A program made the translations under genes and the position numbers. Of a DNA stretch of 64,000 bases, positions 32,052-52,986 are shown piece after piece. The notes beneath the pieces were generated by a model. That model was not told where the DNA came from. It worked only from the letters and a program-made list of their open reading frames with translations, and did not search any database. Numbering within the stretch: position 1 is the first letter of the stretch; every line of letters starts with the position of its first letter. The stretch is from Gracilariopsis chorda (Eukaryota; Rhodophyta; Florideophyceae; Gracilariales; Gracilariaceae), in the NCBI GenBank assembly GCA_003194525.1, contig NBIV01000257.1:62001-126000 (forward strand), in the 5' to 3' direction.

Positions 32052-34265
32052 CTACAAAAGAACTTCGGGGTACACTACATTATTGGTAGAGGTGCTACCG
32101 GCAGGGAGACAGGCCACGATGTTGGACGGGTTGGTGGTCCGAGAAAAGGCGACGTACAGCTGGCCATGCGTGAAACAGCCATCACGCAAATCCAGTCCGA
32201 TGCGACCACTATACGACTGACCCTGTGCCTTATTGGTAGTGATGGCAAAACAAACACGTACTGGGAACTGGGTGCGAGTGAAGTTGGGAACCGGAAAGTT
32301 GTCGTCCCCAGGTCCACAGGGCATGCGTGGCAGGCATAGTGCGTTGCCACGATTTACTCCAGAAGCGAGTCGAAGAAACATTACGTTGCTTTGCATGTAT
32401 TCTACGGTATAGATGGCACCATTGACGTGGCCGTTTGAGGGATCCAAGTTGCGAAGGAGCATAACCACAAAGCCCTTTTTGAGTTTGAGGCGGTGGTCGG
32501 GCAGCGCTGACCCGGCAGTCAGAGTGCTGAGCATCTCGACAGGGTACTGCAGCGCGGCACCGTCGTCGTCGCTCACCTTGTCCGCACTGAGGTACGTGCG
32601 ATACGCTCCAGGTATCATGTGGCCTACATAGTCGTTGAGCTCTGGTAGGCGATAGTTTCGTGCGGTTATAATCACCGTTGACGTTAGCCAATCCGCATCT
32701 ATGTACCTTTGAGCGATACCATGAAAGACCATACGGACCATGGTGCGGAACGACTCCACACATTGTACGGACTCTGGCAGGGTGAAGGGGTGCTTTGGCG
32801 GGACAGTGCCTGGCAGTCTGCCTTCTCCAATCTGCAAGAGCGTGTTTGGAAACTGCAGTGCTTCCTGTGTGGCTTTGGGGTCTCGACGGAGCGCAGAAAG
32901 GCGCATGTTCTCAGTCAATCTCAAGGTGCGAAAGTGAGAAAAGAGACTTGAGCGTTTGATGCATGCGTTGACAATCAATGATCGAGAGCCGCCACGAACA
33001 ACGGGAAGGATCTGTCGAAAGTCGCCAGAAAGCAATACGAACTTGCCTCCAAAGGGGAGCTGCGAGCGCGTTATGTCACGGAGAGTGCGGTCTACGGCTT
33101 CGACGCAGAAGCGATGACACATTACGATCTCGTCCCAGATAATGAGGTCGACGTTCCTCATCCGAGTGGCGAGGTGCGAGTTGACCGGGATGTTGCACGT
33201 GATCTCAGCGGTGGCTGGGATGGGAATCCTGAACACGGAGTGGGCCGTCCGACCGCCCTCAAGCAGTATGGCTGCTACAGCAGACGTGGCTACCGTAAGG
33301 ACGGACTTGCCACGAAGGCGTAACGTGGCCTGAATTGCCTTGGAGAGGAAGGTCTTGCCGGTTCCACCCGGAGCATCCAAAAAGAAAACGCGAGTGGTTG
33401 GCTGCGTTGGCGTAGAAGGACCACCAAGACCCTGCAAGCTCTCCGCGGACACGCCAGGAAGGATGGCCCCCACGACGGTATTGAACGCCAGATGCTGACG
33501 CTCATTGAAGAGAGGGAGGGCAGCTTGCACAGTGTCGTTCAGCTCCGAATGGATTTGCTGCGGAGACCGAGTTGGAGCGCGCATTTCCGGTAGGTCCTGC
33601 ATGGGTGTCGGAAGACCGTACGATGACAGAGACGCCAGTGGGCCACCCATTTCTTGCAATGCCTTTTGCACTTCTAAGAGAACGTAAGAGCTGGCTCTTT
33701 CGTCGTCGGCCAGTGCGTGCATCATGCAGCGATGTCGAGCGCGTATATCCTGCAGGAACATCGATAGATGCTGCTCCCACAGAGAACGGGGGTCCGACGG
33801 CTCGCAGTAAAGCAAGATGGTGGCAAAAAAATGAGAGAGCGGAACAAATGAGGAGCGAAAGGACTCGCGTAGTGCCCGTCTCCATTCGCTGTCGTCGGCG
33901 AGAAGGCCCATCTTGAGGCAGGCCTCCCTGAAGCTACCACACTGCTGACCATCCACGTTGCGGAGATGCTGAAAGGAAGTAGCACCCGCTGTGTGGGTCA
34001 AGAGTAAGCGGAGGTAGTACCGCTCACCCTCTCGTGGACTGGCAGTGTAAATGCGCCCAACTACATGCGCACCGCTGCCAGTGAAGTCGTATAGATCGGC
34101 TGCTGCAGCGGCGGCTGAGGAGGAGGTGGGCTGGCTTCGAGACACCGAACGACGTCGGAGACATGCACGCGGCTTCCAGCATTTGTTTGATTTGTTCCAA
34201 GTAAAGTACCTCGGGAACTGGGCATAAGGGATATGCTGTGCGCCGGGGTACTTTTGGTTGGCCAC
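32052..34265 (-). CDS. Helitron Pif1-like helicase half
   Basis: A 737-codon open frame that is the C-terminal half of a Helitron Rep-helicase. It begins with the linker PYAQFPRYFTW, common in Helitrons. The helicase has Walker A APGGTGKTFL near residue 298, Walker B IIWDEI near 360, LSGDFRQILPVV (motif III) and the C-terminal motif TTNKAQGQS followed by LYVAFSRTT. Family knowledge: this 5'-3' helicase unwinds DNA during rolling-circle transposition. It is in the same frame as the Rep half, from which it is separated by one TAG at 34317-34319. The ATG at 34265 is an internal methionine and need not be a true start. All helicase motifs look intact. Confidence 0.88.
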   Translation of the reverse strand: MANQKYPGAQHIPYAQFPRYFTWNKSNKCWKPRACLRRRSVSRSQPTSSSAAAAAADLYDFTGSGAHVVGRIYTASPREGERYYLRLLLTHTAGATSFQHLRNVDGQQCGSFREACLKMGLLADDSEWRRALRESFRSSFVPLSHFFATILLYCEPSDPRSLWEQHLSMFLQDIRARHRCMMHALADDERASSYVLLEVQKALQEMGGPLASLSSYGLPTPMQDLPEMRAPTRSPQQIHSELNDTVQAALPLFNERQHLAFNTVVGAILPGVSAESLQGLGGPSTPTQPTTRVFFLDAPGGTGKTFLSKAIQATLRLRGKSVLTVATSAVAAILLEGGRTAHSVFRIPIPATAEITCNIPVNSHLATRMRNVDLIIWDEIVMCHRFCVEAVDRTLRDITRSQLPFGGKFVLLSGDFRQILPVVRGGSRSLIVNACIKRSSLFSHFRTLRLTENMRLSALRRDPKATQEALQFPNTLLQIGEGRLPGTVPPKHPFTLPESVQCVESFRTMVRMVFHGIAQRYIDADWLTSTVIITARNYRLPELNDYVGHMIPGAYRTYLSADKVSDDDGAALQYPVEMLSTLTAGSALPDHRLKLKKGFVVMLLRNLDPSNGHVNGAIYTVEYMQSNVMFLRLASGVNRGNALCLPRMPCGPGDDNFPVPNFTRTQFPVRVCFAITTNKAQGQSYSGRIGLDLRDGCFTHGQLYVAFSRTTNPSNIVACLPAGSTSTNNVVYPEVLL

Positions 34266-34316
34266 AAACCACTCAGTCAGCTTGGTTCCTGCCCGCTCTC
34301 TGTTAGCAGCAGAGTG

Positions 34317-37085
34317 CTAGTCACCTTCCTGGAAGAACACCGTATGGTGACCTTCCAAGTGTACTTCAAGCCGCACGACGGGTGGATTGCGATCGACAAT
34401 GTCGAACGCAAGCAACCGCCACACTGCTTCGGAGGCTGACACATACCGTGCGTCCTGGAAGTTCTGGATCTCGTCATGGCGTCCGTTCTCATCTACAATC
34501 TCCATGGTGACTCTGTCGGAACCCTTGCACACATACTTGAAGAGGTACTTGATACCGCCAAGTCGCGATACGCATAGCTCAACATTGATGTGGCATGCAA
34601 ACCGGCGGAGAAGCTCTGGGCAATGTGGAACCACCCACGAATTGTCCAACGTCACTACGCGCTGTCGACGGCCGACCCTGCAGCTTCGTTCCACAGAAAC
34701 CCCGCCCTCGGAAGGAGCGCGTCTTCTGTAGCTGATGTAGTACTCATTCTCAACCTGTGCAGTTTCGGAGCGAAACGGCTTCGGAAAGTGCTTCAAGCAT
34801 GTGAGCTCGCGCATGCACAGCGCTGACCGGTTGCCTGCACCGCACGGAGTGTGAATCATGTGCTTGAGCACCAACTCTTGTAAGGTGGCGTCGGAGGAAG
34901 GAGGAATCTCAGCTGAGATGAGCTCGTCAATGTGAGCAGGGTCTCGGAGCTGCTGCTTTGCATCTTCGTTGAGGAAGAAGATAATGTGCGCGTGCGGTAG
35001 GCCTCGCTTTTGGAACTCGATTACCCGCACGTGAGCAAGAACGGCTCCAAAGAACTGTTCATCAATGACAAACGACATTAAGGCTTTCATCTTGAGACGA
35101 AACACTCGAGCACAAAGATCGGGTCGATCGGGAGCGCGCTGACCATCGAACAGCGCCCTGGTGATCTCAGGCCAGTTCGGATTGCACGTCATCATGAGAA
35201 AGATATCGGGGTGCCCAATGGTGTTGGATATGGCGATGATGTCGTGCATTTGCTGTCTCATGTATCGTTCACCTCCTACAAATGTGGAGGGCAACACGAA
35301 CAGTCGTCCAGCGCGAACAGCATCCGCCTCATCCACGCCCAGCAGAGAGTCACCCAGGCTCTCCCGCAGGGATGTATAGTCCGCAGCTCGAAGTCTGTCC
35401 TGGTTGTGTCGTAAGTAAGACAAACGCTCCGACTCAGCCTTGCAGAACTGGTCAACCATGTACTGCTGGAAGAGCCGTTTGCCCCGTAGAATCGTACTGA
35501 ACTCGGTCGGTCTCTCGAAAAGCTGCCACGAATAATACATCAGCGGAGTCACCTTCTTCTCTCGCGAGGCGTTTGGTGGGCAATACCTCATCTCAGGGTG
35601 CCATCCGTCCTGGCCACATGGGAACAAAAGAACGTAGCTCAAGGGATCGTACGATCTGTGACTGACGGGGATAGTGTCCAGCACCTCATCACCATTTACA
35701 GTCAGCTCTCCACGCCTACGCACAACAATATCGCGCGTCCCAATCTCGCCGTCCTCATTCCCTGGAATGATGGCGGCTACTTGCGACGCCTCGGGCCCGT
35801 TGTAGCGACGAACATGCTCGCCGCGGGGCCGTCTATCAGCATGGATCACCATCTGATACGTAATTGCAGGCGTATCGGTGATAGCCCACTCGCGCAGGCT
35901 GCAAAATGTCTGCACGTATGGATTCCCCGTGTGCAGCATGGCTGCCAACTGAGACAGCAGTTCCGGTTGGAGGCGGGGCAGCAACCCCGCTCGCCTCGCA
36001 GACTGCGCGTCATAGTCGGTGTCATGGATGTACACGGACAGAAATGCGGGCTGGACACCCCGAGCGGGAATAAGCGGACCCATGTAGTGATAGATCTGTC
36101 CCTGCATGGTGATTGTAGGATTGACGGTAGAGTCTCCTAAACCACGGCTCACCCAGTTTGCCTTGACGGACGCCATAGACACAGCTGTGTTGTAGGCACG
36201 GTTCTCAGCACGAAAGTGGTTCTCTCGAGGCCCAGTCGCAGTCAGTAGTTGGCGAAGAAGAGGCGGAGGCTCCAGAAGCGCAGGGAAGCTGAGATGCCCC
36301 TTTGTGCAGCACTGCGAGGAAAGAGGTTGCGAGCGGGAGCTGCTCACAACCCTTTCCTGTTTGAAATGCAGTGCCTTGCAAAAGCGACACTCTACATTCA
36401 TGAGACCGAGGTCCATGTAGCCACTCTCGTCTACATCATCCGAGTCAAACAATCGACGGGCGACATTTCGGCTCTCGCGCTCAGCTTCAAGACGCTGTTG
36501 TCGATCAGCTGTGCTCTCAAGCTCTCGTGATGCCCGTCTAGATGTTCTTTCAGAGTGACGGCGAGAATGTTCAGCAGCAGGGTCATCCTGTTGCCTTGCA
36601 GCACGATTGGCGTTACGATCGTTTGCCTGACGATTTTCGCGATTATCTGGCGTCTCTGAAGCTCGTGCCAAAGCAGTGGCTGTACGGTCGGCCTCACGAA
36701 CGTCATCAGTGTGCGCAGCGGAAGCTGTAGCCCTTCTTCTTCTCGCACGTTCCCTATCAGCTGTTCTTCGTGCTTCACGCTGTTCCTCAGTTTCATTTGC
36801 CCTCCGTATGGCTGCTCGCTCTCTATTACGACGTCTCCTCTCTGCCTGTTGCTCACTGGACTCTGCTCGACGTCTTGCAGCAGTACGTTGACGGTTCTGC
36901 TCACGTGTGGCATCGCCTGAGGCACTGGGCTGAGTTGTAGGCATTGTAAAAGATCTCAAGCACACCACACAAAAGAAAAACTGTCCAAAGACCGGCAAAG
37001 CAAAAAAAGAAAAGATAAAAAAAAGAAAAAAAAGGGATATGGTCGAGAACAATTGTGCTACGGGCTGCCAAACCCTTTTATGCAC
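34317..37085 (-). CDS. Helitron Rep half (HUH endonuclease), ended by a premature stop
   Basis: A 922-codon frame. Residues about 50-215 are Arg/Glu-rich repeats (RRRAESSEQQAERRRRNRER type), typical of Helitron N-termini. The Helitron-like N domain follows. The HUH motif GLPHAHIIFF is near residue 693 and the two-tyrosine motif YLFKYVCK near 848, so both catalytic elements are present. Family knowledge: these residues nick the DNA and hold the strand during rolling-circle transposition. The frame stops with TAG just after VHLEGHHTVFFQEGD, where related elements continue into the helicase. The codons after it remain open and join the helicase half in frame. It is therefore a single Rep-helicase gene broken by one codon, or one read through. 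Confidence 0.88.
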   Translation of the reverse strand: MHKRVWQPVAQLFSTISLFFLFFIFSFFALPVFGQFFFCVVCLRSFTMPTTQPSASGDATREQNRQRTAARRRAESSEQQAERRRRNRERAAIRRANETEEQREARRTADRERARRRRATASAAHTDDVREADRTATALARASETPDNRENRQANDRNANRAARQQDDPAAEHSRRHSERTSRRASRELESTADRQQRLEAERESRNVARRLFDSDDVDESGYMDLGLMNVECRFCKALHFKQERVVSSSRSQPLSSQCCTKGHLSFPALLEPPPLLRQLLTATGPRENHFRAENRAYNTAVSMASVKANWVSRGLGDSTVNPTITMQGQIYHYMGPLIPARGVQPAFLSVYIHDTDYDAQSARRAGLLPRLQPELLSQLAAMLHTGNPYVQTFCSLREWAITDTPAITYQMVIHADRRPRGEHVRRYNGPEASQVAAIIPGNEDGEIGTRDIVVRRRGELTVNGDEVLDTIPVSHRSYDPLSYVLLFPCGQDGWHPEMRYCPPNASREKKVTPLMYYSWQLFERPTEFSTILRGKRLFQQYMVDQFCKAESERLSYLRHNQDRLRAADYTSLRESLGDSLLGVDEADAVRAGRLFVLPSTFVGGERYMRQQMHDIIAISNTIGHPDIFLMMTCNPNWPEITRALFDGQRAPDRPDLCARVFRLKMKALMSFVIDEQFFGAVLAHVRVIEFQKRGLPHAHIIFFLNEDAKQQLRDPAHIDELISAEIPPSSDATLQELVLKHMIHTPCGAGNRSALCMRELTCLKHFPKPFRSETAQVENEYYISYRRRAPSEGGVSVERSCRVGRRQRVVTLDNSWVVPHCPELLRRFACHINVELCVSRLGGIKYLFKYVCKGSDRVTMEIVDENGRHDEIQNFQDARYVSASEAVWRLLAFDIVDRNPPVVRLEVHLEGHHTVFFQEGD

Positions 37086-37259
37086 CTAGCACCGAAGTTT
37101 TGGATCGTTGCAGCGAAGATAGAATGTCTTGACCACAAAGAAACCGCCTAGATTGGGAACTGACCTGTACAGAGTAAACAGGGGGCCGTGCCTGGAGAGT
37201 CTGCCAGGACTGCGAGATTTACAATCCCAAAATCGCTAAACAGCTCTATGCTGGACGTA

Positions 37260-37264
37260 CTTTA
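37260..37264. other. Target-site duplication (left copy) of gypsy element 1
   Basis: CTTTA here and CTTTA at 48173-48177 flank the element exactly. A 5-bp duplication is standard for Ty3/gypsy integrases. Confidence 0.85.
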
Positions 37265-38167
37265 TGTAGTGCAATACCCGCAAGCGGGACAACACACGAA
37301 GACGTTCGGAATCTTCCCCTCTGGAGGGTAAGACAGCGAACGGAGCCTCTCCGGATGAGCACGACGAAGTCGGGTTGTAAAGCCGAGGCTCACCCTCACG
37401 CCAAGCGGGGAGAGTTGAAACGGTAGGATTAGGATCACCACGAATGGGAAAACAGCCCTTCCAAGGAGTACGAGTCCACGTAAGTGGGGGAAGACGTCAC
37501 GGGATACCGGCACGAGAGACACGCGTCAGCGGTGACGAGCAACCACACAAAGGGGTAGGAACCACGAGAGTGGGGTAAGGGAAATACGGGGATGCCCGAT
37601 TGGGGGCGACGGGGGTGTTGGCCAACGGGACCACGGAAAAAGGTACAACAGAAACCCTATACAGGGGCGAGAACACGGCGGTGGTGAATTAAGTGACAAG
37701 TGCCCAAGGCGGTGATACTCCTAGTGACGCAGGGTGGATAAGTCTACCGTTAGTAACGCGGCTTTACCTCCGAGGAGTGTAGAAGACTCGCGAAAGCGGA
37801 AAAGACTTAGAGCCAAGAACCCCTGGTTGGGGAAGTCTACTCAGTGTCAGGGCGAGGTCGCCGAGCCACTATATAGTGTAGTAATCTCCCTACTGTAGCG
37901 TAGATAAATAATAAATAATAAATATAAGTTAACTAAATGTCCACACCGTGGTGCCAACCTCCTCTTGACTATCCGTGTCACACGTGGTCCACTCACGCCT
38001 TGGGCGGCACACGGCGCATGCACAGGTGTGCACCTGGCGCACAGTGCGGATCCGCTGAGGGCTGAGACACCCGCTAATAGCGGTAGTAATCATAAACACG
38101 CGAAAGCGGCAAAAACATCAAGTCCACAGGGCATCGCTGAGTAATCCTCCTTGAGGATTGCACTTCA
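37265..38167 (-). repeat. 3' LTR of gypsy element 1
   Basis: On the plus strand it starts TGTAGTGCAA and ends TTGCACTTCA, so the ends form a short inverted repeat with TG...CA borders. It matches 47269-48172 at about 99%. It contains the palindrome CACTATATAGTG at 37867-37878. Confidence 0.93.
37867..37878. promoter_or_regulatory. Palindromic TATA sequence in the 3' LTR
   Basis: CACTATATAGTG is a perfect 12-base palindrome with a TATATA core, so it reads as a TATA box on both strands. The same sequence is in the 5' LTR at 47872-47883. On the plus strand it lies about 330 bp upstream of the antisense ORF. Confidence 0.4.
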
Positions 38168-38183
38168 TATCCCCCTCCTGAGG
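38168..38183 (-). other. Polypurine tract of gypsy element 1
   Basis: On the minus strand the bases just before the 3' LTR read CCTCAGGAGGGGGATA, a purine run in the expected place for plus-strand priming. Element 2 has a similar tract at 52732-52742. Confidence 0.7.
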
Positions 38184-38202
38184 TGCGAATACGACATCCA
38201 CG

Positions 38203-40026
38203 ATGGCGACGGAAGCACCGGGAAAGGTCCTTAAATGTAAGTCCGGTTCGCCAGTTCTCCATCCCACTCTGGGTAACGAGCACCTAGCTGCGAACAGCGA
38301 ATCTGCGACCAACTCTTCCGAGGTTCTTCCAACAACACGTACGCTTTCGCGGCCTTCTTCTCCGATTACTCGGCTTCCTTCATCTACGATGAACAACAAC
38401 AACAACAACGGCAACAACAACAGCAACGCCGGCAGCAACACACCGTTACAGTACTTCTCCGGATTTCATTCCGTGCCTCTACCGCAGAGCGGTCTCTCGA
38501 CTCCTTCGCAACAAACACGCGCAAATGCGAGTGCGGCTCCCACGGGAGGGTATCTAATGGCAGCGTGGCCGTCGTACGACATGCTGGTCGGGCTGCAGCC
38601 TTCGCAACATGCGATGACTCTCCGGCTGGCGCCGTGGTTCCACCCGACTGCGGTGTTCAATGATGCGCTTCTGGCGATGTATACCGATGGAAACGGAATG
38701 CTCCCGGGTGACGTTCCGGCAATTGTGACCACTTCGTGGGATTGGCGCAATCGCATAGCGATACCCGTGCACACGGTAATCCGACGGGGTCGGGAATCAG
38801 CAGCTTCCGCGCACGCGGCGTTGGTCTTACTCGCTCATCAACGGCTTCGCCGGGCTCTCTTTGAGTATCCCATCCCCGATGGTATGGGCTCCGACATCGG
38901 ATTGTATCGCACCCAAGGTGAAATGGGGTACCTCGACCGCCTCGCGGGTTTGGAACCACTCTTGTGGAGAAGCATTCCCGCGGCGCGCCAAGACGCGGTG
39001 TGCTGGACACGACCGATCATTCGGGCTGAATTCCGCTATATGCGTCGCTTAGCGAGGGCCAACTTCTTGTCGATGATACGCTTTGAGCGGCGAGCACGGT
39101 CCCGATTCGGGTATTTGATTCCGTATCAGAACGTAGAAGTCGAACGCATCCGCGTGGTCAACCGACGGGGTCAGTACGTTCCGATTCCACCGTGGTGGTC
39201 GCATCTCGAAGCGTGCCGAGGTTGCTACATCGAGTTGCCTCCCGTGATCACGTATTACGGCTCATACCTCATCGAGGATCCTCAGTCCGGGCTCTGGTCC
39301 GTGGTGGTCACCGAATGGGCGGTCCGCACAGCGGCTTTCATCCTCTGGGAGGTTTATGACCAGTACAGACTGTGGTTCATCCCGTTGCGGGTCCGTGCCG
39401 CCATCCGAGCGCTGGACTTACGAATCCCACTAGGTGGTGAGGCAAACGCTGACGAAGTAGCGGGGCTCCTCGATTTCATCGACCAGGTTGACTGGGCTTC
39501 GGTTCCTCTAGAGCAGAGTGGGCGTACTGCCGGTAGCCGGATACAGGACCTGTCGCCAGGGCGTCGAACTCCGCTCGCGGGTGACTTCATCTACTTCAAC
39601 CCTTGGGAGGGGCATGAGATCTCCGCGGAGGAAGCGAACGAGCTCCGGTTTGCACCGAGATATATCCCCGAGGGGCATCCGACCGTTTTTGTTGACGCCG
39701 ATGAGTACTACAACGTCTACGACGGTGAGGATCCGATGTTCGACAACGAGCCCGACGAAGGTGCCGGTCACGCCGAGGCAGAGGGGGAACCATATGGTAT
39801 GGATGCTCCTGGAGTTGCCCCTGCGAGTCAGCCGTCCAATCCGTTGGTCGGTCTTCCCACTGGTGGGCCCTCTACGCCAGATGAGGGGAACGTGGCCCCT
39901 GCGGGTCAGGCTGCCGTGATCTCTCAGTTCCTCCGCCAAGTGGGGCTGGGAGGTAACGAGGCCAGTGGCGATGTCACCGCGATGCGGGATGCTCTGATAG
40001 CCCGACTCCAGGGAAATAACCACTAA
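38203..40026 (+). CDS. Antisense accessory ORF inside gypsy element 1 (607 residues, no known family)
   Basis: An uninterrupted 607-codon frame on the strand opposite to gag and pol, starting 36 bp from the 3' LTR. Its ATG is in a purine-rich GATGG context. Residues 1-105 are Ser/Thr-rich with an Asn run (N6-G-N3-S-N) near 65. Residues about 110-420 are a globular, Trp/Arg/Tyr-rich core (MLVGLQPSQHAMTLRLAPWF, PIPPWWSHLEACRGCYIELP, SVVVTEWAVRTAAF). The tail is acidic, with DADEYYNVYDGEDPMFDNEP near 500. I recognise no domain, transmembrane segment or catalytic motif. AATAAA follows about 110 bp after the stop. Plant gypsy elements sometimes carry extra ORFs here, but function is unknown. Confidence 0.75.
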   Translation: MATEAPGKVLKCKSGSPVLHPTLGNEHLAANSESATNSSEVLPTTRTLSRPSSPITRLPSSTMNNNNNNGNNNSNAGSNTPLQYFSGFHSVPLPQSGLSTPSQQTRANASAAPTGGYLMAAWPSYDMLVGLQPSQHAMTLRLAPWFHPTAVFNDALLAMYTDGNGMLPGDVPAIVTTSWDWRNRIAIPVHTVIRRGRESAASAHAALVLLAHQRLRRALFEYPIPDGMGSDIGLYRTQGEMGYLDRLAGLEPLLWRSIPAARQDAVCWTRPIIRAEFRYMRRLARANFLSMIRFERRARSRFGYLIPYQNVEVERIRVVNRRGQYVPIPPWWSHLEACRGCYIELPPVITYYGSYLIEDPQSGLWSVVVTEWAVRTAAFILWEVYDQYRLWFIPLRVRAAIRALDLRIPLGGEANADEVAGLLDFIDQVDWASVPLEQSGRTAGSRIQDLSPGRRTPLAGDFIYFNPWEGHEISAEEANELRFAPRYIPEGHPTVFVDADEYYNVYDGEDPMFDNEPDEGAGHAEAEGEPYGMDAPGVAPASQPSNPLVGLPTGGPSTPDEGNVAPAGQAAVISQFLRQVGLGGNEASGDVTAMRDALIARLQGNNH

Positions 40027-40134: not shown

Positions 40135-40140
40135 AATAAA
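40135..40140 (+). terminator. AATAAA polyadenylation signal after the antisense ORF
   Basis: AATAAA occurs on the plus strand about 110 bp after the stop of the antisense ORF and before it would run into the chromodomain segment. A T-rich stretch follows. This fits an independent antisense transcript, but the hexamer alone is common. Confidence 0.4.
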
Positions 40141-40234: not shown

Positions 40235-41118
40235 TTATCCCACTTGGCCGTTTATCACCGATGCCGGGATTCCCGTTCGCGTTCTGCGATTATATGACAC
40301 CACTTTCGAACGTGGGAGGTGCTCTATCGGCTCATCCGAATCATATTCGGGCCCGAAACCGTACCAGCGTACGCGGTACTGGATGTAACCATCTGGATGG
40401 TAAGAATGTTCCACAATGTGGTCAAAGACAAACTCCTGTTTGTAGACTTCCCGGCCTCGCCGTGTTCGCATTATCGCGTCCTGCACGGCAGGCTCTACCA
40501 CCACTGGTGGGTGTTGGACAGTCTTCCCCGGAAGGGGAATGGCTTGGTACTGCCTGTCCATGCCCTTAGAGGAGTCATTAACCGGTTTCCGGGTAGGTTC
40601 ATCCGTTTCGCGGGTCTGGAGGTCCTCGGCACGGCCGGTTCAGTATCGCGAACGCGATTAGTTTCCTGCGACGATTTAACTTTGGCGAGAGACTTCCCAC
40701 TGCGTGGTGCATTTTGACGACTAGAATCCCGGTGGGGAGTGCGATCTGGCGCAGATGCGGTAGAACTTCCTCGAGAGGGTTCAGCGGTAGCTGTAGCGCG
40801 CAAATGCGAAGATGGCACGTCAGTAGACGGAATTCTCGGTCCACTATTGTCCTTTTCGATGTTTCCGGAGGTCCGTGCACCACGGTTGTCATGACGCGAC
40901 GAAGCGATTTCAGTGTTAGGGTCCTCCTCCCCCTCCTTAGATGGAGCGGCATGGGGAGTGGTCGAAGCGCCCAAACTGCGGGGATAGACGCCGCGCAGTG
41001 GCGTTAGAGAAGAAAGGCCATTCGGGCCTGCGTCCGATAAGGACGGTATATCTGAGAGTCCCCTTGAAGGGTGTGGCAACACAGAAGGCCTGTTAACCAC
41101 AGATGTGGGTTGTTCCAC
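40235..41118 (-). pseudogene. C-terminal Pol linker and chromodomain of gypsy element 1 (frameshifted)
   Basis: Two frames make up this end of Pol. The first (41118-40495) follows an in-frame TAA at 41140-41142 and encodes a disordered Ser/Pro/Thr linker beginning near RPSVLPHPSRGLSD, shared with element 2. The second (40561-40235) is shifted and encodes a chromodomain: EFVFDHIVEHSYHPDGYIQY, then RVRWYGFGPEYDSDEP. Family knowledge: chromodomains on integrases steer insertion to marked chromatin. In element 2 the matching stretch keeps DTWEP; here the Trp is replaced (YDSDEP), so one expected aromatic residue is missing. The shift lies near 40500-40560. Confidence 0.75.
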
Positions 41119-41139: not shown

Positions 41140-44100
41140 TTAATAAGCAACCTCTACAGAGGGTGGCGGTGCCATAACAACGCGATCGCGGGAAATCCGC
41201 TGATGAGCGTCGTTCATTTCCACCACTAAGGTGTCGTTATCCACTGATATGACCTTGTAGGGACCGTCCGCGACGGGTGAGAGCTTATGCCGTTTCTCCT
41301 TATCAGGGTTCCAGTTCTCCTTACGGACGAAGACGTAGTCAACCTCCGTAATTGGCGGTGCTGTACCTCGTACACGAGAGTCAAAATCACGCCTGTACGA
41401 GGCCTGTGCTCGTGCCATGGAGCTCCGGGCGACCGGGATTAACTTCGTAAGCCACAATTTCCATCGTTGGCGATAATCCTTCACGGAAGGGAAGTTTGCC
41501 AGCGTAGGCTGGGGTTCCAACGCTACGGCGGGCGGATGACGCGAAAGTACCAATTCAAATGGAGTCAAACCCGTTGTACGGTGTACCTGTGTGTTATACG
41601 CAAACTTCAAGGCGTCAGTGTACAGGTCCCATGTTTTGGGGTCATCAGCAACGTAAGAACGGAGAGAGGCTAACAGCGTTCGGTTAAACCGCTCGACTTG
41701 CCCATTACACTGGGGGTGGTAGGTCGTTGTGAACAGATTCTTGATATCGAGAATCCGACACACGTCCTCAAAGAATCGCGATGCGAATTGCTTTCCGTTA
41801 TCGTATAGAATGTTAACCTGTGGTCCGTAGACAAATACCCAATGGGTGACGAAGGCTTGCGCCACCGCGAAAGCGGATATCTTCCGTAAAGGTACGGTGC
41901 GAACCAACTTGGAGAAACGATCCGTGATAACGAGTAAAAACTTATGTCCACGCTTTGTGGTGAGCAGCGGTCCCAAGAGGTCAATTGCGACAAACTCGAG
42001 AGGGGCCCGTGCTGGAAATAACTTCAACTTCGTTGAGTGCTTCCGGAGTTTGACCCGGTTTTTGGCACACTCCGTGCATGACCGCACAGTCGCGTAGCAG
42101 TCCACAGCCATGGCTGGCCAATAGTAACTCCGTCGCAACGTGAGGTAAAGTTTCCGTCCACCGGCGTGTCCACCAAGTTTCGCATAGTGCGACAAGTGCA
42201 GCACTCTAGATTGTAGAGTATGCGGTACCACTACCTGTGGGGTTGTTTGAACCGTCCTGACGAGGTATCCAACATCATTCACCTCGAAAGGGAGTTGCGC
42301 ACCGCCATTAAGTCGGGCGCGAATCTGAGTACAGAAGGGATCACCTTGTTGTTCTCTGACCATCTCCTCCGGGGGTATTGGCACGAAATTACCCGGTGGG
42401 GGTTTCTGAGCATCGTCCGAGACGAGTAGTGCGTCCAGTTCATCATCCGATTCCGGTTCTTCATCCGAGTTATCGGGTTCACGGTCCGGGTTCTCCGGTT
42501 CTCGACCGTCGACGACGAAGCAAGGAATGTCCTCGTCCCCAGCGGGTAGAGTTTCACCATCCGTGGGTAAACGCGACAGCGCGTCCGCCTGAGCGTTCTT
42601 TGTGCCCTTCTTGTAGATCACCTCGAAGTCGAATTCCGCAAGGCGGAGCCTCCAACGCATTAAGCGGCCTGACGGTTCAGAGACTGTCATGAGCCATCGT
42701 AATGACGAGTGATCCGTGTAAACGGTGAAGTGCACACCCATAAGATAGGGGCGGAGAGTGGAGAGTGCCCACACAACTGCAAGACACTCTTTCTCCGAGA
42801 CGGAGTAATTCCGCTCGTGAACATTCAGTGAGCGTGACCAGTACCCAATAGGGGTTCGTTCTCCTTCGGGAGTTGTCTGAAAGAGAGCGCAACCTACTTG
42901 GTAGTCACTAGCATCCGTGTCTACGGTAAACGGTAGTCCGGGTTTCGGTAACGATAAGATCGGTGCTGATGTTACAGCCTCCTTGAGGGAGTTAAACGCC
43001 TTCGTCTCGACGGACGTAAAGGGTTCCAATTTCGGTGGTTGGCCTTTCCGCAAGAGCGCGTTCAAGGGTGCTGAGATATCCGCACAATTCGGGATAAACC
43101 GTCGATAGACGTTGACTAATCCTAGAAAGGAGCCTAGTTCCGTTTGAGTGGCGGGTTCCTTCGCTTGGCGGAGCGACTTAACTCGAGCTTCCTCGATCAT
43201 CACACGCCCAGGGCGGATTATGTGGCCCAGATACTTCACTGTATCTGTAAAGAACTCACATTTCCTCAACTTGAGAGTAACTCCAGCCTCACGTAGCGTG
43301 GTCATGATATCTCTCACGTGTGTGAGGTGGTCATCCAGATTATCTGAGAATACTATGATATCGTCCAGGTAGACGAGGCATGTACGCCATTTGAAGCGAT
43401 CCAGTAGTATGTCGATAGCACGCTGGAAAGTAGCGGGAGCATTGGTCAAACCAAAAGGCATCCGTTTGAAACGGTAGAGTCCGGAGTGACAGACAAAAGC
43501 AGTCTTGTCGCGGTCCTGTTCCCTGACGGGCACCTGCCAGTATCCCCAATTGGCGTCTAGAGCCGTGAAAACGGTAGCATTTCCGAGTGAATCGATGTAC
43601 TCATCCATTCGTGGGATCGGGTACACATCCTTGATGGTTACGGCGTTCAGTCGACGGTAGTCGATGCAAAAGCGCCAGGATCCATCCAGTTTCGGAGCCA
43701 GTACCACTGGGGATGCCCACGGCGACTGAGCCGGTTCTATTACTCCAGCTTGGAGCATCTTTTCCACTTGGAATTCTTCCTCTTCTCGAGCTTTAGGGCC
43801 TGCCCTATAGGTGTGCTGAGCGATCGGCCTGGTATCAGGTAGCAAGTCAATCCGGTGCTCCGTTGTAGTAATCTCCCCTAGGGAGCCATCCCACATCGTG
43901 GTGAAATTCCGTAGCATCTCACGGAGACGTTCACGGTGCGATTCCGGCACATGACCGAGGTCAAGTTCCTCGAGTTCTTTCACGGGATCAATCCGGTCGT
44001 AACTCGTTGGAACCGGCTTAGCATCCGAGCATTTCGGCATTTGGACGGTAGTCTCCTCCCCCTCCTTAGATTGAACGAGACCGAGGACATCGGCGGCGGT

Positions 44101-45000
44101 AATTCTCGTGGGAACCATCGCGGTGGGGTGGGGCATTACCGAACCAATGACTTGGTTTTTCACCAGTGACTGGGGCGTAGAGCCTAGATTGGCGACCAGC
44201 ACGTTGAACGGTTTGTCGGGCTCAATTTGAGCTACTCCATTCGCCACGGCGAGTTGATACCTATCATATAAGGATGAAAGGGGTTGAATTACTCGTAAAC
44301 CGTGTTGACGGGAAGTGACTCGTACCCAAACTTGCGATTCCGGGGGAAGTTGGACAGACGCGGCAACGCGGAGCTTTGTAGAGTCCCGGGAAGCCGGTGG
44401 GGGTTCCTGCGCAGCAGGTAATGGAACGTGCTTCTTCGAGGCACGTCGTAGAGGACGACGTACGATCGGAACGGAGGAGCCGTCTTCCATTTCCACACGT
44501 CTTAGACGGGGCCTGATGGCATCGACGAATCTGTCACAGAAGTCGCATCCTAAGATCAAAGGGGCGGCAAGTTTCCGACAAACAATAAAGTTGAGTTTCA
44601 CAAGAAAGGAGCCAAGGCGCACGACCAGGTCGATTGTCCCAACCGTTGATAACGGGTTATCATTCGCATCCGCGACATCCGGTATCACGCCATGGCGGAT
44701 CTGAGACTGCTACGACGGTGGCAGGAGCGACTCAACGATGAAGTTCGGGCCTGCACCTGTGTCCAAAACAGTGAGAACTCGCACCATAAACTGGGTGGAA
44801 AGGCCAAGGTCAGCATATACCTTGTAGTTTCTCTTGGCCATTACCAAAACTCTGTCCGGGAACCGGTTGTTTCGAACACGTTTCCACGGTCGACGCAGAA
44901 CACTAAAGTGTTCAGAGTTCACGTCTGAGACGGCCTGTTTCCTAGTAAGGATTTTGACCGGGGAGCGAGGCAGTGACGCCTCGGGCGCCTTCAACCTCAA
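41140..45000 (-). pseudogene. pol: Pol polyprotein of gypsy element 1: protease, RT, RNase H, integrase (one in-frame TAG)
   Basis: The frame runs from the protease N-terminus (LPRSPVKILTRK near 44960) through VLTVLDTGAGPN, the protease active site, to a TAG at 44710-44712, and continues in the same frame to 41140. Element 2 has sense codons at this point. Downstream come RT with CLVYLDDIIVF, RNase H starting FTVDTDASDYQVG, integrase with a His/Cys zinc-finger region (HYAKLGGHAGG, CTECAKNR) and YHPQCNGQVERFNR, and a GPY/F-like YVFVRKENWNPDKEKRHKLS. Pol lies in the -1 frame relative to Gag and is open upstream to the gag stop without an ATG, so frameshifting is the likely mode of expression. 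The -1 frame peptide is conserved with element 2. Confidence 0.9.
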
Positions 45001-45038: not shown

Positions 45039-46286
45039 TCAGTTTTCCTGAGCCCGTTCCGCCTGAGGCGGGGTCTCAGAATCCTGAACCACTAGCAGTG
45101 GAGCGCTAGCGGGGGTGTCTTGTCGAACAAGACGGGGGTTAGTGACCTGCTCAGCAGGGGAAAGCAACGCGTGTCGCGGGTTCGTATCCGGGATATTCCG
45201 GGAAAAGTCCGTCTTCGCTCGTAAGTACGAGGCAATCGGAACAGTCTGCTTCTCCGCTGGAGCAAGGGCTTCATAGTTACCGATCACTCGGGTTACTTCT
45301 CTCAAAGTGAGGATGCAGTCCGGTGAAATGTGACCGTGTTCGTAACATATGTGGCATATGACTCCAGAGCGTGGGGGCGGCTGACCAGAAAGAGCATCCG
45401 TGTGTCTCACCGCTGGGCGGGTATCCTTCCATCCGGGACGACTCTGCCGTAGGGCACCATTCGAATAGGGAATGCGAGGTCCGTGAACACGGGGTCCGTC
45501 AACATACAGCAGGGAATTCTCCTGAGCTGTGTCGTAGGACGCATCCGTCGTGGACGGCAGTTCCGTTGTCGGAATAGACTGAGCAGCGGCCTGAGCGAGG
45601 TAAGCGTTATCGTAGTCCCTTGAAGGGCGTCCACTCGCTGCTAGCGATAAAGATGGTGAACTGGCTTCCATCATCAACGCCTTGGCGGGACGAAACTTCG
45701 ATGCAGGGATACGAGCTCGAAGTGCATCACCTTCCGCTTGCGCGTGTTGGATCAACTCCAAATAGGTGGTGTTACGACGATCCTCCCGATATCGGGCCAC
45801 CAGCGTATGGATTGCCAGATCCAATCCATCGATGTACATGGTGCAGCGTTCTCCAGACGAGTAAACATTGCCACACCTGTGGAAAGCCTTATTAAGGCGT
45901 ACCGAGAATTCGGTTTCCGTCTCTCCAGATTTCTGGCGGGTATCGCGTAAAGCGAGAATAGCCGCTTGAATAGCGTTGTTCGTCGCGTAGGACCGCAAGT
46001 GGTACTGAACCGCTTCTGGCCAGCACGTTACATCTCCTTCGGAGGCTCGGGAAGAACCTCTTACAGAGTTGTATTGATCCTCGGCGAGGCCACGTAGAAA
46101 ATACGGTAGGGCAATAAACGCCTGTCCTTCGTTCATACCAAGTATGTCCGCTTCGGAAACGAACCTTCCGACGAAGTCTAACACCAATATGGGATCCTCT
46201 CCAGAAAAGGACTGGTTACGAAGGGAAAGCTGCATACGCTTTATGCAGTCCTTCACCTTACCCGTACCGCGGGGTGTACGATCCAA
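45039..46286 (-). CDS. gag: Gag (capsid and zinc-knuckle nucleocapsid), ORF2 of gypsy element 1
   Basis: About 415 codons. Residues 1-200 resemble the retrotransposon Gag capsid (WPEAVQYHLRSYATNNAIQA; ETEFSVRLNKAFHRCGN; LELIQHAQAEGDALRARIP). A C-X2-C-X4-H-X4-C zinc knuckle follows near residue 308 (CHICYEHGHISPDC). No ATG lies at the left border; the frame is open back to the TGA that ends ORF1, 8 codons upstream of the first residue given here and in the same frame. Production may need stop readthrough, or initiation at the ATG about 18 codons in. The 3' end GGAAAACTGA overlaps the start of the Pol frame. Confidence 0.88.
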   Translation of the reverse strand: MDRTPRGTGKVKDCIKRMQLSLRNQSFSGEDPILVLDFVGRFVSEADILGMNEGQAFIALPYFLRGLAEDQYNSVRGSSRASEGDVTCWPEAVQYHLRSYATNNAIQAAILALRDTRQKSGETETEFSVRLNKAFHRCGNVYSSGERCTMYIDGLDLAIHTLVARYREDRRNTTYLELIQHAQAEGDALRARIPASKFRPAKALMMEASSPSLSLAASGRPSRDYDNAYLAQAAAQSIPTTELPSTTDASYDTAQENSLLYVDGPRVHGPRIPYSNGALRQSRPGWKDTRPAVRHTDALSGQPPPRSGVICHICYEHGHISPDCILTLREVTRVIGNYEALAPAEKQTVPIASYLRAKTDFSRNIPDTNPRHALLSPAEQVTNPRLVRQDTPASAPLLVVQDSETPPQAERAQEN

Positions 46287-47192: not shown

Positions 47193-47252
47193 AAGTTTGG
47201 ACAGTGAATCTCCGAGGAGAGGTAATACAAAACCTAACCGTTTCCGATTCTA

Positions 47253-47265
47253 GGTCGGGAGACCA
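47253..47265 (-). other. Primer-binding site of gypsy element 1, matching tRNA-Tyr
   Basis: On the minus strand, three bases after the 5' LTR, it reads TGGTCTCCCGACC. The complement ends GGGAGACCA, the 3' end of eukaryotic tRNA-Tyr (yeast tRNA-Tyr ends CGGGAGACCA). Element 3 has the identical 13 bases at 62312-62324. Confidence 0.7.
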
Positions 47266-47268
47266 CTT

Positions 47269-48172
47269 TGTAGTGCAATACCCGCAAGCGGGACAACACA
47301 CGAAGACGTTCGGAATCTTCCCCTCTGGAGGGTAACACAGCGAACGGAGCCTCTCCGGATGAGCACGACGAAGTCGGGTTGTAAAGCCGAGGCTCACCCT
47401 CACGCCAAGCCGGGAGAGTTGAAACTGTAGGATTAGGATCACCACGAATGGGAAAACAGCCCTTCCAAGGAGTACGAGTCCACGTAAGTGGGGGAATACG
47501 TCACGGGATACCGGCACGAGAGACACGCGTCAGCGGTGACGAGCAACCACACAAAGGGGTAGGAACCACGAGAGTGGGGTAAGGGAAATACGGGGGATGC
47601 CCGATTGGGGGCGACGGGGGTGTGGGCCAACGGGACCACGGAAAAAGGTACAAAAGAAACCCTATACAGTGGCGAGAACACGGCGGTGGTGAATTAAGTG
47701 ACAAGTGCCCAAGGCGGTGATACTCCTAGTGACGCAGGGTGGATAAGTCTACCGTTAGTAACGCGGCTTTACCTCCGAGGAGTGTAGAAGACTCGCGAAA
47801 GCGGAAAAGACTTAGAGCCAAGAACCCCTGGTTGGGGAAGTTTACTCAGTGTCAGGGCGAGGTCGCCGAGCCACTATATAGTGTAGTAATCTCCCTACTG
47901 TAGCGTAGATAAATAATAAATAATAAATATAAGTTAACTAAATGTCCACACCGTGGTGCCAACCTCCTCTTGACTATCCGTGTCACACGTGGTCCACTCA
48001 CGCCTTGGGCGGCACACGGCGCATGCACAGGTGTGCACCTGGCGCACAGTGCGGATCCGCTGAGGGCTGAGACACCCGCTAATAGCGGTAGTAATCATAA
48101 ACACGCGAAAGCGGCAAAAACATCAAGTCCACAGGGCATCGCTGAGTAATCCTCCTTGAGGATTGCACTTAA
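47269..48172 (-). repeat. 5' LTR of gypsy element 1
   Basis: 904 bp, about 99% identical to the 3' LTR by eye. Its outer end reads TTAA where the other LTR has TTCA, so the terminal CA is mutated. CTTTA (48173-48177) follows as target duplication. Confidence 0.93.
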
Positions 48173-48177
48173 CTTTA

Positions 48178-48367
48178 GTCCGAAGACCGTTTCCCTCTAA
48201 CAGTTCCTTAGATCCAGACAGAGCCGCTGTTGCTCGACTCGTATTCTGTTGTCCCCTTTCCAGACTCTTCAAGGGCTACTCCTTCCGCGCAATGCACGTT
48301 TTGTGGGGAGCTATCGTACCTCACGTGAACGCCACCCAGAAATAGTTGCCGAACCAATTAAATCTGG
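48178..48367. other. Short spacer between gypsy element 1 and repeat copy A
   Basis: 190 bp that was next to 37,264 before the retrotransposon inserted. It may be the Helitron 5' region, but I cannot confirm this. Confidence 0.3.
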
Positions 48368-48854
48368 ATGACGAACGCGTTGTTTGGTGAGAAAGTTAAA
48401 CTTAACAGATTCCGCCAGTACTGCCAGCGTACCTTTTTCAGACGTCCTGACTCGCCCAGAGTGCTAGAACCCACACCGTAGGTTAACCACAGCGAAGGAG
48501 AACGCGAGCGCTCAGTGGGCTAGTGCATTGCACGCTTTTGTATAGCGTGCAATGCGATTGGTGCACATGACCGTTGAAAAATAGTAATTAAAACGGTCAT
48601 GTGCACTGCACTGCAACGGCTCGGTTACTGTAGTGTAACGGCTGGGCTACTGTAGTCAAACGGCTAGGCTACTGTGGCGTGCAAAAGGCGCCAGGTGGAA
48701 ACGTGTCGCATTATGCGGTGCAAGATGCCTCTTGGAGCGCATAAAACGCCACGTTTCCACTTGGCAGCCTCCTTGCCGATTTTGCAGCCAATGAGTGGGC
48801 GTTACCTGACACACAGACAGACAGACGGACAAACATTGTCTTTAGTAAGGGGGG
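48368..48854. repeat. Hairpin-rich 487-bp repeat, copy A
   Basis: Starts ATGACGAACGCG and ends GTCTTTAGTAAGGGGGG. The same borders delimit copy C. It contains three strong inverted repeats: 48525-48535 with 48545-48555; 48561-48575 with 48592-48606; and 48690-48705 with 48750-48765 (one mismatch). A threefold ACGGCT...GGCTACTGT motif lies near 48618-48676. No coding capacity. It is probably a non-autonomous element or structured RNA-derived repeat; no terminal repeats or target duplications were identified. Confidence 0.8.
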
Positions 48855-49267
48855 ACAAGTGGCTCCATTGCGTGCTTCGCACGCGTTAAGGAGTGAAAGA
48901 AGCATTAGAGTGAAAAGAGTATTCGGGTAGCGTGTTTTGGGTAGTTTGTTTGTAGAATGCAAGTATTTTTGGGGAGTAAGAAGGGAGAAGAAAAGAAAAA
49001 ATGAAAGAAAGAAGAAGAGGTTAACTTCAAGCTATCAAGTTCGTCAACGAAAGAACTTCGGGGTACACTACATTCTTGGTAGAGATGCTACCGTCAGGGG
49101 GACAGGTCACGATGTTGGTCTGTTTGGTGGTCTGAGAAAAGGCGATGTACAGAAGGCCATGCGTGAAACAGCGATCACGCAAATCGATTCCGATGCGACC
49201 ATTAGACGACTGAACCTGTGCCTTATTGGTACTGATGGCAAAACAGACACGTAGTGGGAACTGGGTC
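48855..49267 (-). mobile_element. Helitron 3'-end fragment
   Basis: About 413 bp homologous to 31862-32275, including the terminal hairpin and the last part of the helicase (FPLRVCFAISTNKAQVQS ... LLYIAFSQTT, the counterpart of FPVRVCFAITTNKAQGQS ... LYVAFSRTT). It is diverged from the larger copy. Homology ends at about 49267 and starts exactly where repeat copy A ends. It could be a truncated insertion or a non-autonomous derivative. Confidence 0.8.
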
Positions 49268-49373
49268 TGATTTACGAAATAAATAAAACTGTGTGTGCAT
49301 AGAAAGTGCGCTTTCAGCTCCTTCATGCAACGCATGATCGAAGGCAATGGTAATAGGTGCTCTGCACGCGGGC

Positions 49374-49657
49374 GTTTCACGCCCGCGTGCAGAACAGCAC
49401 ACCGCCGCCGCATGCAGTTCGTAGATGCTGGTATGGCAATGGCATGCTTTGCATGAGGGTGTTTCACGCCCCGCGTGCAGACTGCCCCACCGCCTCGGCA
49501 CGCAGTCTGCAGAGGCTGCTATGTCACACTACGCGTCTGGCGTGTAGATGAGATCGGGCGTTTCACGCCCCGCGTGCAGACTGCCCCACTGCCTCGGCAC
49601 GCAGTCTGCAGAGGCTGCTGTGTCACGCTACGCTTCGAGTTTGTAGATGAGATCTGC
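49374..49657. repeat. Tandem repeat of about 87-99 bp, three copies
   Basis: Units start at 49374, 49460 and 49560 with GTTTCACGCCC, followed by CGCGTGCAG, a CCGCC-like core and GATGAGATC-type ends. The second and third copies are much closer to each other than to the first. The unit contains short palindromes (GGGCGTTTCACGCCC; TGCAGACT with AGTCTGCA). Confidence 0.75.
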
Positions 49658-49869
49658 ATATCTTAGCATTTGGAAGGAAAGTGCCACCATCGTGCAAATC
49701 ATAGTCGTTCGTAGCGTTTTTTTACATAGCATTATTGAACAGAGTTGTGCGCCGCCTGTAATATACCTTGCATTGCCATCAGAGCCTCAGATAGCCTCTT
49801 TAGACTCGTGTGAGAAGGTATTGTGGCTTCTATTGCATCGAATTTAAGCATAAACTGCACACTGACACC

Positions 49870-50365
49870 TAGCATTGTCGCCTCTCGAATCATGGCGTCT
49901 AGTATGATGGCGCGTAGCATCGTCGATCCTAGCATCGATGCGCTTAGGATTGTCGCGCCCAGAATCGTGGGGTCTAGCATCGTCTAGCATTCTTGTGCAG
50001 AACCTCTTGGCGTGCTGCTCAGGTATTGTGGCTTCTATGGCATTGAGCATTGAGGATGAAGCTGTAGAGCATTGCTTGGTAAACGGAAGTAGAATCGTCG
50101 CGCATTCCACTATGGCGCACAAAGTGTTCATGTAGAACATGGTCAAGCATAGCCTTATTGCGCAGAGCATCGTAGAAGACAGCACTGCGTGTGGCAATTA
50201 TGCAGCAAACTATGCTACTGTGCGGAAGTTAAACCTTTGCGTATACTGCAGCAGCGTAGAGCATCGTCGTGCCTAGCATTGTCGCGCATCGAATCATTAC
50301 GCATAGCTTTGTCCGTCTTACCATTGTCGGGCTTAGCATCATTGTAAAGAGCATGGTGATGTGGA
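49870..50365. repeat. Degenerate 15-bp periodic array
   Basis: Between 49870 and 49989 the sequence splits cleanly into 15-base units resembling TAGCATCGTCGCGCC. The phase resumes at about 50092-50180 and 50259-50363. Single-copy spacers interrupt it. A minus-strand reading gives five-residue periodic peptides (MLGST, ILDAM, TMLCA style), so it may be a decayed pentapeptide-repeat coding region or a simple 15-bp minisatellite. Confidence 0.65.
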
Positions 50366-50515
50366 GCGTTGGTTAAGAGATCACTGCGTACTGCTCTATG
50401 GTTTAGAGAAGTATAGAGGTGCCGGCAAGTAAATGCTTGTATACTTATGTCAAGCAATGTCTCATTTGTAGAGTAACTAAAGCAAGAGAAAGGGGAGAAC
50501 TCAGCGCCCGAATTT

Positions 50516-50627
50516 CATGGCACGCTTTAGTGTAGTGCCATTTTATTGGTGTGCATAACCATGGTGAATAACATGGCACGCGTTAGTGTAGTGCCATTTT
50601 ATTGGTGTGCATAACAATGGTGTAGTG
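50516..50627. repeat. 56-bp direct repeat, two copies
   Basis: Copies at 50516 and 50572 share CATGGCACGC(T/G)TTAGTGTAGTG and the following TTATTGGTGTGCATAAC. They lead directly into repeat copy B. Confidence 0.7.
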
Positions 50628-50939
50628 TAGCGTGCAATGGCATTGGTGCACATGACCGTTGAAAAATAGTAATTAAAACGGTTATGTGCACTGCACTGCA
50701 ACGGCTCGGTTACTGTAGTGTAACGGGTGGGCTACTTTGGTCAAACGGCTAGGCTACTGTGGCGTGCAAAAGGCGCCAGGTGGAAACGTGTCGCATTATG
50801 CGGTGCAAGATGCCTCTTGGAGGGCATAAAATGCCACGTTTCCACTTGGCAGCCTCCTTCTCGATTTTGCGGCCAATGAGTGGGCGTTAGCTGACACACA
50901 GACACACAGACGGACAAACATTGTCTTTAGTAAGGGGGG
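50625..50939. repeat. Hairpin-rich repeat, copy B (5'-truncated)
   Basis: About 315 bp matching the last two thirds of copies A and C and ending with the same GTCTTTAGTAAGGGGGG. The first 165 bp of the family is missing. The middle hairpin has a C-to-T change. Confidence 0.8.
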
Positions 50940-50950
50940 AATGAATATAT

Positions 50951-51437
50951 ATGACGAACGCGTTGTTTGGTGAGAAAGTTAAACTTAACAGATCCTGCCG
51001 GTACCACCAGCGTACCTTTTTCAGACGTCCTGACTCGCCCAGAGTGCTAGAACCCACACCGTAGGTTAACCACAGCGAAGGAGAACGCGAGCGCTCAGTG
51101 GGCGAGTGCATTGCACGCTTTTGTATAGCGTGCAATGCGATTGGTGCACATGACCGTTGAAAAATATTAATTAAAACGGTCATGTGCACTGCACTGCAAC
51201 GGCTCGGTTACTGTAGTGTAACGGCTGGGCTACTGTAGTCAAACGGCTAGGCTACTGTGGCGTGCAAACGGCGCCAGGTGGAAACGTGTCGCATTATGCG
51301 GTGCAAGATGCCTCTTGGAGCGCATAAAACGCCACGTTTCCACTTGGCAGCCTCCTTCTCGATTTTGCAGCCAATGAGTGGGCGTTAGCTGACACACAGA
51401 CAGACAGACGGACAAACATTGTCTTTAGTAAGGGGGG
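50951..51437. repeat. Hairpin-rich 487-bp repeat, copy C
   Basis: Same length, start (ATGACGAACG) and end (AAGGGGGG) as copy A, with few differences, and only 11 bases after copy B. It keeps the three inverted repeats. The near-identity of A and C suggests recent duplication. Confidence 0.85.
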
Positions 51438-51500
51438 ATTTACCATAAATCCACGAAATTCAATAAGTCCAAAAAGGACTTCTTAGCCAAAACAACACAT

Positions 51501-52731: not shown

Positions 52732-52986
52732 TATCCCCCCCTAAGACGGGAAAACGACCGCGGACGCGGAGGGTTCCCAGACGAAAATGGGTGATAAAAG
52801 CGCGTACGCCGTCTCCGGTTCTTCTTTCCTGGCATAGCCGGCTATTGTAGTATAGTGTTGTGGGGAGCTAGCTGCTCCCTTGAATAAACTTTCCCGTTTT
52901 GAACGGTGATGGTCGTTTGAGTTCCCCGTCTTCGACGGACCTTGCCTTGTTATCTTTTGCTATCGCCGTCCGTTCGCTCGGCAACG

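Follow-up and report, generated by a model that had tools for sequence, protein, structure and literature searches.

An antisense gene under purifying selection beside the 3' LTR of Ty3/gypsy chromoviruses in the red alga Gracilariopsis chorda, a candidate regulator of its element

What is an uninterrupted frame of 607 codons doing on the strand opposite gag and pol, between the chromodomain and the 3' LTR of a red-algal retrotransposon? The question is raised by the window (the whole stretch of 64,000 nucleotides of Gracilariopsis chorda DNA that was analysed), in which a sequence-only reading had noticed the frame and had left it to be a captured host gene, a regulator of the element or an envelope-like remnant. 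The frame itself was recovered as described, at 38203-40026 on the + strand and with the terminal stop as its only one (Table 1). According to PMC7264820, the role of antisense accessory genes for retrotransposons is an open question, and we tried to examine whether the frame codes for a protein, how widely it is carried and what its product may do.

Table 1. Features of element 1 and the antisense-gene remnant of element 2, in window coordinates
Feature	Position	Strand	Basis or description
Target-site duplication ACTTTA, left	37259..37264	.	six bases identical directly outside both LTRs
3' LTR of element 1	37265..38167	-	self-blastn, 37265-38165 = 47269-48170; ends TGTAGTGCAA / TTGCACTTCA
35-bp gap: candidate polypurine tract (- strand reading) and ORF start context	38168..38202	.	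sequence
Antisense ORF, 607 aa, ATG	38203..40026	+	head 1-117 (Asn-rich, disordered), core 118-495 (folded), tail 496-565 (acidic), C-terminal helices 566-604
AATAAA, candidate antisense-gene poly(A) signal	40135..40140	+	sequence
Chromodomain end of pol, in another frame in the window copy	40235..40561	-	Pfam Chromo, E 4e-5, 23.9 bits
pol: RT, RNase H, integrase	41140..44688	-	Pfam matches
gag-like ORF	45039..46286	-	position; zf-CCHC at E 0.45 only
Candidate primer-binding site (TGGT...), 3 bp inside the 5' LTR	47250..47265	-	sequence
5' LTR of element 1	47269..48171	-	self-blastn, ends from sequence
Target-site duplication ACTTTA, right	48172..48177	.	matches left copy
Antisense-gene remnant in element 2: first 12 codons, then post-stop B sequence	52787..52822	+	blastn against L009

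The carrier, element 1, is a complete Ty3/gypsy chromovirus LTR retrotransposon on the - strand, in which RT, RNase H, integrase and a C-terminal chromodomain are all present in the Ty3/gypsy order and whose LTRs are 99.0% identical over 902 aligned columns (self-blastn). The Chromo match of the window copy (23.9 bits) lies under the Pfam cut-off of 25.1 bits, and that of L009, a copy from a second family (B, see below), lies above it (E 3e-10). In the window copy pol is open for 1182 codons (41140-44688) and ends at a stop at 41140-41142, and the chromodomain goes on in a different frame. Gag-like ORFs similar to that of element 1 were found in L009 and in L017 and L026, two copies of family A. 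Since the element is read on the - strand, it is the U3 side of its 3' LTR that abuts the ORF start. Directly beside element 1 lies a Helitron (window 32052-37085, - strand), whose two adjoining frames encode Helitron_like_N (34320-37085) and a PIF1 helicase (32055-34265), and window 48361-51438 contains direct repeats of about 300-490 bases at 48.4, 48.5, 50.6, 50.9 and 51.1 kb.

It had been considered that the real coding frame might lie on the minus strand; all five other frames of the ORF stretch hold stops (18 and 22 in the remaining two + frames; 12, 18 and 16 in the three - frames). Among 300 first-order Markov sequences of 6.4 kb each, built from the ORF-bearing stretch (58.8% GC), the longest six-frame open run had a mean of 219 codons and a maximum of 497, versus the 607 observed, so that length by itself is suggestive against chance and conservation is the decisive argument. 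The ORF adjoins the LTR, as first reported, and its start was measured at 35 bp, not 36 bp, from the inner LTR end (LTR 37265-38167); the loci examined in families A to D have a similar C-rich tract ahead of the ORF start. Downstream, the distance of about 110 bp given for the AATAAA agrees with our measurement of 109 bp beyond the ORF stop. About 95 bp separate this motif from the end of the chromodomain frame; the ORF and pol thus stand tail to tail with no overlap of their coding parts. The AATAAA is found about 87 bp beyond the stop in three B copies, and one copy each of C and D showed neither AATAAA nor ATTAAA within about 220 bp downstream of it.

Copies of the ORF were collected from the host genome (G000; 91.3 Mb in 1081 contigs) by match lists that are ranked by score and lean to intact copies. 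At least about 220 copies were found, which fall into families A, B, C, D and F (about 65 A, 71 B, 75 F-like and 13 C/D), with identities of 52-63% between the measured family pairs among A-D. The window ORF as query gave at least 76 matches (72 scored of 1788 candidates): at least 38 copies of family A span the whole query at 89-100% identity, and six more matches at 54-56% represent family B. With a B query, at least 71 places at 91-100% were detected, 58 of which are stop-free, and with the C query (the public protein P0001) at least 13 places of families C and D. L047 shows 71% identity as protein, yet 96-99% to C copies as DNA, and is thus a broken C copy. The public protein P0002 matched at least 75 F-like places at 51-59% (62 of 75 stop-free; flanks examined in L050). 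Additional diverged relatives (G000:C117:132144-133370, C53:315235-316455 and C17:338773-339969), with open frames of 645-647 aa and 34-35% identity to the public protein P0004, possibly represent more families. The prospect that other copies would be full of stops is borne out in part: in these score-ranked lists, 18 of the 38 full-length A copies contain at least one stop (20 are stop-free), whereas 58 of the 71 B places contain none. For the same reason, the view that an intact ORF next to a broken pol is telling turns out to be weak evidence. Among 11 A copies with examined flanks (two incomplete), one has an open pol frame of about 1829 codons and eight have a stop-free ORF. We did not accept the clean ORF beside a broken pol as functional proof, because pol is three times the length of the ORF and copies were ranked by ORF score.

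The same layout recurs in the other families. In B copy L009, the ORF occupies 1077-2924 (+) and pol with its chromodomain is on the - strand; in D copy L048, and likewise in F copy L050, the chromodomain is located on the strand opposite the ORF and just beyond it; and in C copy L049, pol lies downstream of the ORF on the opposite strand. The ORF is thus antisense to gag-pol in A, B, D and F by the strand of the chromodomain and in C by that of pol (L049). In the loci examined from A, B, C and D, the ORF is immediately preceded by LTR-end and PPT motifs. Similarity shared by six C copies begins about 940 bp ahead of the ORF start, a length that would fit an LTR plus a short gap. C copies L043 and L044 show an additional chromodomain match on the other side of the ORF, which lies outside the stretch common to C copies and so belongs to a neighbour.

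Between families, the ORF is under clear purifying selection. In an NG86 set of 27 A and 6 B copies, the dN/dS ratio was 0.16 for A-B (mean dN 0.45, dS 2.8; 162 pairs, with dS saturated, and undefined in 12), 0.63 within A (351 pairs) and 0.39 within B (15 pairs). Single pairs gave 0.18 for A-B, 0.25 for A-C, 0.29 for B-C (dS 1.24), 0.31 for B-D and 0.29 for C-D (dS 0.98); for comparison with the 0.16-0.18 of the ORF, pol had an A-B ratio of 0.084. Three close C copies (two pairs) gave 0.99 and 1.03, and near-neutral ratios within A and among close C copies are as expected of recent dead copies. A dN/dS near 1, named beforehand as telling against a gene, is therefore approached among close copies (0.63 for A-A to about 1 in C) but not between families (0.16-0.31). 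As a control, all six frames of the A-B alignment were compared: the +0 frame alone is stop-free and has the lowest pN/pS, 0.46 (bootstrap 0.40-0.51), whereas the other five have 0.61-1.53 and 20-36 stops summed over both sequences. Selection also differs along the protein, pN/pS in the six B copies (15 pairs pooled) being 1.00 in the head, 0.131 in the core, 0.35 in the tail and 0.163 in the C-terminal helices. In A-B, where the trend is weaker because dS is saturated, the values are 0.68, 0.39, 0.47 and 0.62, respectively. This frame-specific purifying selection shows that the ORF codes for a protein, and a chance ORF was rejected on the between-family dN/dS, the frame control and the Markov model.

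Within the libraries searched, the statement that no family is recognised is correct, since no credible match was obtained in Pfam (24 proteins), PHROGs (6) or NCBIfam (2), but not for the ORF at large, which has many relatives, both the genome copies and 23 public proteins (P0001-P0023, one from the host genome). A first protein search gave four of these, and a query with the P0004 core gave twenty including itself. P0002 and P0004 are not from the host genome, their best matches there being 59% and 36%. The relatives are 26-49% identical to the window ORF, and the 24-protein alignment contains 15 invariant positions (including R236, F277, E295, R296, R299, P307, W332, E336, G340, Y385, W391 and N415) and a conserved core of about 380 residues that is rich in W and R. 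An AlphaFold2 model built with the 24 sequences predicts a confident, mostly helical core at 118-495 (pLDDT mostly above 90, with dips to 65-77), a disordered head, a disordered acidic tail and C-terminal helices, so that the Trp/Arg-rich globular core, Asn-rich head and acidic tail read from the letters are borne out by composition and model. The C-terminal part is acidic (pI 4.1-5.2) in 22 of the 24 aligned proteins, and in the other two it is absent or 2 residues long. Structure comparisons gave no credible match in the PDB (Foldseek, best E 8.5) or BFVD (best E 6.1) and 0 of 18 matches by VIA-align; the predicted core is a candidate new fold by comparison with PDB and BFVD structures, as distinct from predicted cellular ones. 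No nucleic-acid-binding domain or enzymatic motif was recognised in the protein, and simple basic NLS-like strings occur in 5 of the 24 proteins, that of the window being without one. In the ORF tree, 18 of 25 inner branches are well supported, among them the groupings of A with B plus C and of F with P0002, each at 100/100, which implies that the line of A, B and C had separated from that of F before F and P0002 diverged. Provided that F and P0002 diverged along with their hosts, and barring a transfer of elements between species, the gene would predate the divergence of those hosts.

By position and strand, we would class the gene as an aORF-3R (an antisense additional ORF), as distinct from Retand, HBZ or env genes; the kind is known from plants and one fungus, and what looks new is the protein family and the setting, a red-algal chromovirus. 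In plant Ty3/gypsy elements, aORF-3R are described for Grande (gene23), RIRE2, Wallabi, Gran3 and PvRetro13, and also for Retand; PMC7264820 presents them as carried by most members of a family, conserved to a similar degree as the other proteins of the element and of unknown function, and GENE23 as nuclear with its own promoter. Both the plant and the red-algal ORFs lie between pol and the 3' LTR and are antisense to gag-pol, a likeness of layout drawn without sequence comparison and in a different host, a red alga. This position is seen in full in the window, from the chromodomain side in B, D and F, and from the LTR/PPT side in A-D. As to conservation, the ORF ratios of 0.16-0.31 between families stand against 0.084 for pol in A-B; as to carriage, at least 38 full-length A, 71 B and 75 F-like copies have the gene and the element 2 type is without it. 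Retand is reported to have antisense TRP28 (PF04195) ORFs in 97% of clusters, a hallmark of the whole lineage, and recently active non-autonomous members (PMC11963269). In Retand as in the red-algal element, coding sequence in antisense orientation lies between pol and the 3' LTR, but Retand is a non-chromovirus of flowering plants with a pol-LTR region of 2.9-6.6 kb (PMC11963269), whereas the red-algal carrier has a chromodomain and PF04195 was absent from all 24 proteins at E up to 10 (HMMER, whose filters drop weak matches). Outside plants, PMC7264820 describes an aORF-3R in Boty of the fungus Botrytis cinerea, which by description alone resembles ours as an antisense ORF between pol and the 3' LTR. 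LTR-retrotransposons of bdelloid rotifers have non-envelope extra genes (ORF3s) that are gained and lost between families, several with enzyme domains (GDSL, DEDDy); according to PMC5408684, their intragenomic evolution does not depart significantly from neutrality, whereas the red-algal core departs from it clearly.

The bZIP factor HBZ of the animal retrovirus HTLV-1 is likewise an antisense gene beside a retroelement 3' LTR; the red-algal protein differs from it in showing neither bZIP (no match in the 24 proteins against Pfam) nor any other domain. The promoter of HBZ is reported to lie in the 3' LTR (PMC7264820, PMC11963269), and antisense promoters have also been reported in some plant and retroviral elements (PMC7264820).

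Considering that the gene is absent from one element of the same window, element 2, we examined what that element retains. Its LTR is 86% identical to that of family B and its pol 82% identical as protein, and it keeps the LTR, the PPT and the first 12 ORF codons (52787-52822), so the claim that it lacks the ORF entirely does not stand. The B-like sequence resumes 14 bases after the B ORF stop, and a 12-base stretch is alike on both sides of the junction. A 901-base junction query matched all 40 scored places (of 2101 candidates) at 94-100% over at least its first 894 bases. These comparisons indicate that element 2 descends from a B-like element, and we rejected the idea of an unrelated ORF-less element on the grounds of LTR, pol and junction. 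The junction common to all 40 places implies a single deletion fixed in a lineage that multiplied. Since this lineage multiplied without the ORF, the gene is unnecessary in cis, and its product either acts in trans or is dispensable; the deletion lineage could equally mean the latter.

Transcription and function of the ORF are what we infer from this layout. Since 35 bp separate the start codon from the U3 end of the 3' LTR, transcription probably starts within that LTR. An antisense promoter in the U3 of that LTR would drive the ORF, and the product would act in trans, most likely in the nucleus, where it may regulate the element, affecting either how it is transcribed or how it evades silencing by the host; such a role has been proposed for GENE23 of Grande and for the Retand TRP28 proteins, and HBZ of HTLV-1 is known to act in this manner. 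An analogy for an anti-silencing role is provided by VANC, which acts against silencing in Arabidopsis VANDAL elements. Among the options first listed, a regulator of the element is best supported, by the constant antisense place in the families with examined flanks and by purifying selection; because no nucleic-acid-binding domain or enzymatic motif is recognised and NLS strings are few, the term nuclear regulator rests on layout and analogy. We give about an even chance to the reading that this is a genuine antisense accessory gene of red-algal Ty3/gypsy chromoviruses, driven by the 3' LTR, trans-acting and most likely a nuclear element regulator. We hold only tentatively a fuller version, in which a new family with an unmatched fold would be an antisense-encoded trans-acting LTR regulator or anti-silencing factor that predates the A/B/C/F split and is used in trans by the gene-deleted lineage.

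It is also conceivable, though rather unlikely in our view, that the protein is a structural or replication accessory travelling with the Gag particle or the pre-integration complex, with a part in assembly, nuclear entry or target choice. Such a protein could have the conserved W/R-rich core described above, would suit carriers that are chromodomain elements and could serve the ORF-less element 2 type in trans; however, antisense coding would imply control separate from gag-pol, and Pfam reports no Gag or integrase domain in the ORF family. A selected core, a free head, an acidic tail and a gene removable in cis would fit a trans regulator somewhat better than a particle protein.

The capture of a host gene that brings the element little or no benefit and was kept by recent spread only appears improbable, as purifying selection persisted between families and transduced genes are usually sense-oriented according to PMC7264820. 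No non-element host homologue was seen among the hits whose surroundings were examined (part of all hits), which leaves the captured-gene option unsupported. What might suggest one is the G. chorda model P0001, annotated as an ordinary protein ("hypothetical protein BWQ96_03215 [Gracilariopsis chorda]") and 100% identical to the host genome over residues 1-491; yet its locus is a copy of a repeated family, with similarity extending about 3.9 kb through it. This gene model (L041, G000:C30:292265-293737 and beyond) omits a stretch that relatives such as L044 read through, and since L041 changes frame there, the intron of BWQ96_03215 is probably an artefact of a broken copy.

That the antisense RNA is what matters, through double-stranded RNA control with an incidental open frame, seems very improbable: the codon pattern largely refutes it, selection on the protein being frame-specific and concentrated in the predicted fold and the 23 relatives retaining 26-49% protein identity to the window ORF, even though an antisense transcript would base-pair with the genomic RNA over its 3' part and such control is discussed for other elements (PMC7264820). 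An envelope-like remnant, for which the position between pol and the 3' LTR might speak, has a negligible chance and was rejected, because the ORF is antisense where an env-like gene is in sense orientation with a transmembrane segment, has no Pfam match and, as first read, no membrane segment (highest 19-residue Kyte-Doolittle mean 1.3).

To the question of what antisense accessory genes do, the red-algal gene adds a case outside the branches of life known so far. Its carriers are chromodomain elements, many of its copies are intact, and selection is strong on a single folded core. Natural families with and without the gene in one 91-Mb genome make the need for the protein, and its action in cis or in trans, directly testable.

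Two observations concern the elements apart from the gene. Along pol of L009 (B) and L049 (C), dS is 0.04-0.10 at aligned codons 400-800 and 0.4-2.1 in the rest, a mosaic indicative of template switching or recombination between families of elements. At window 58758-61744, LTR copies of the element 2 type are arranged head-to-tail with a step of about 1032 bases and about 200 bases between them, and the last copy of this array is cut off right after the antisense-gene remnant (61652-61744).
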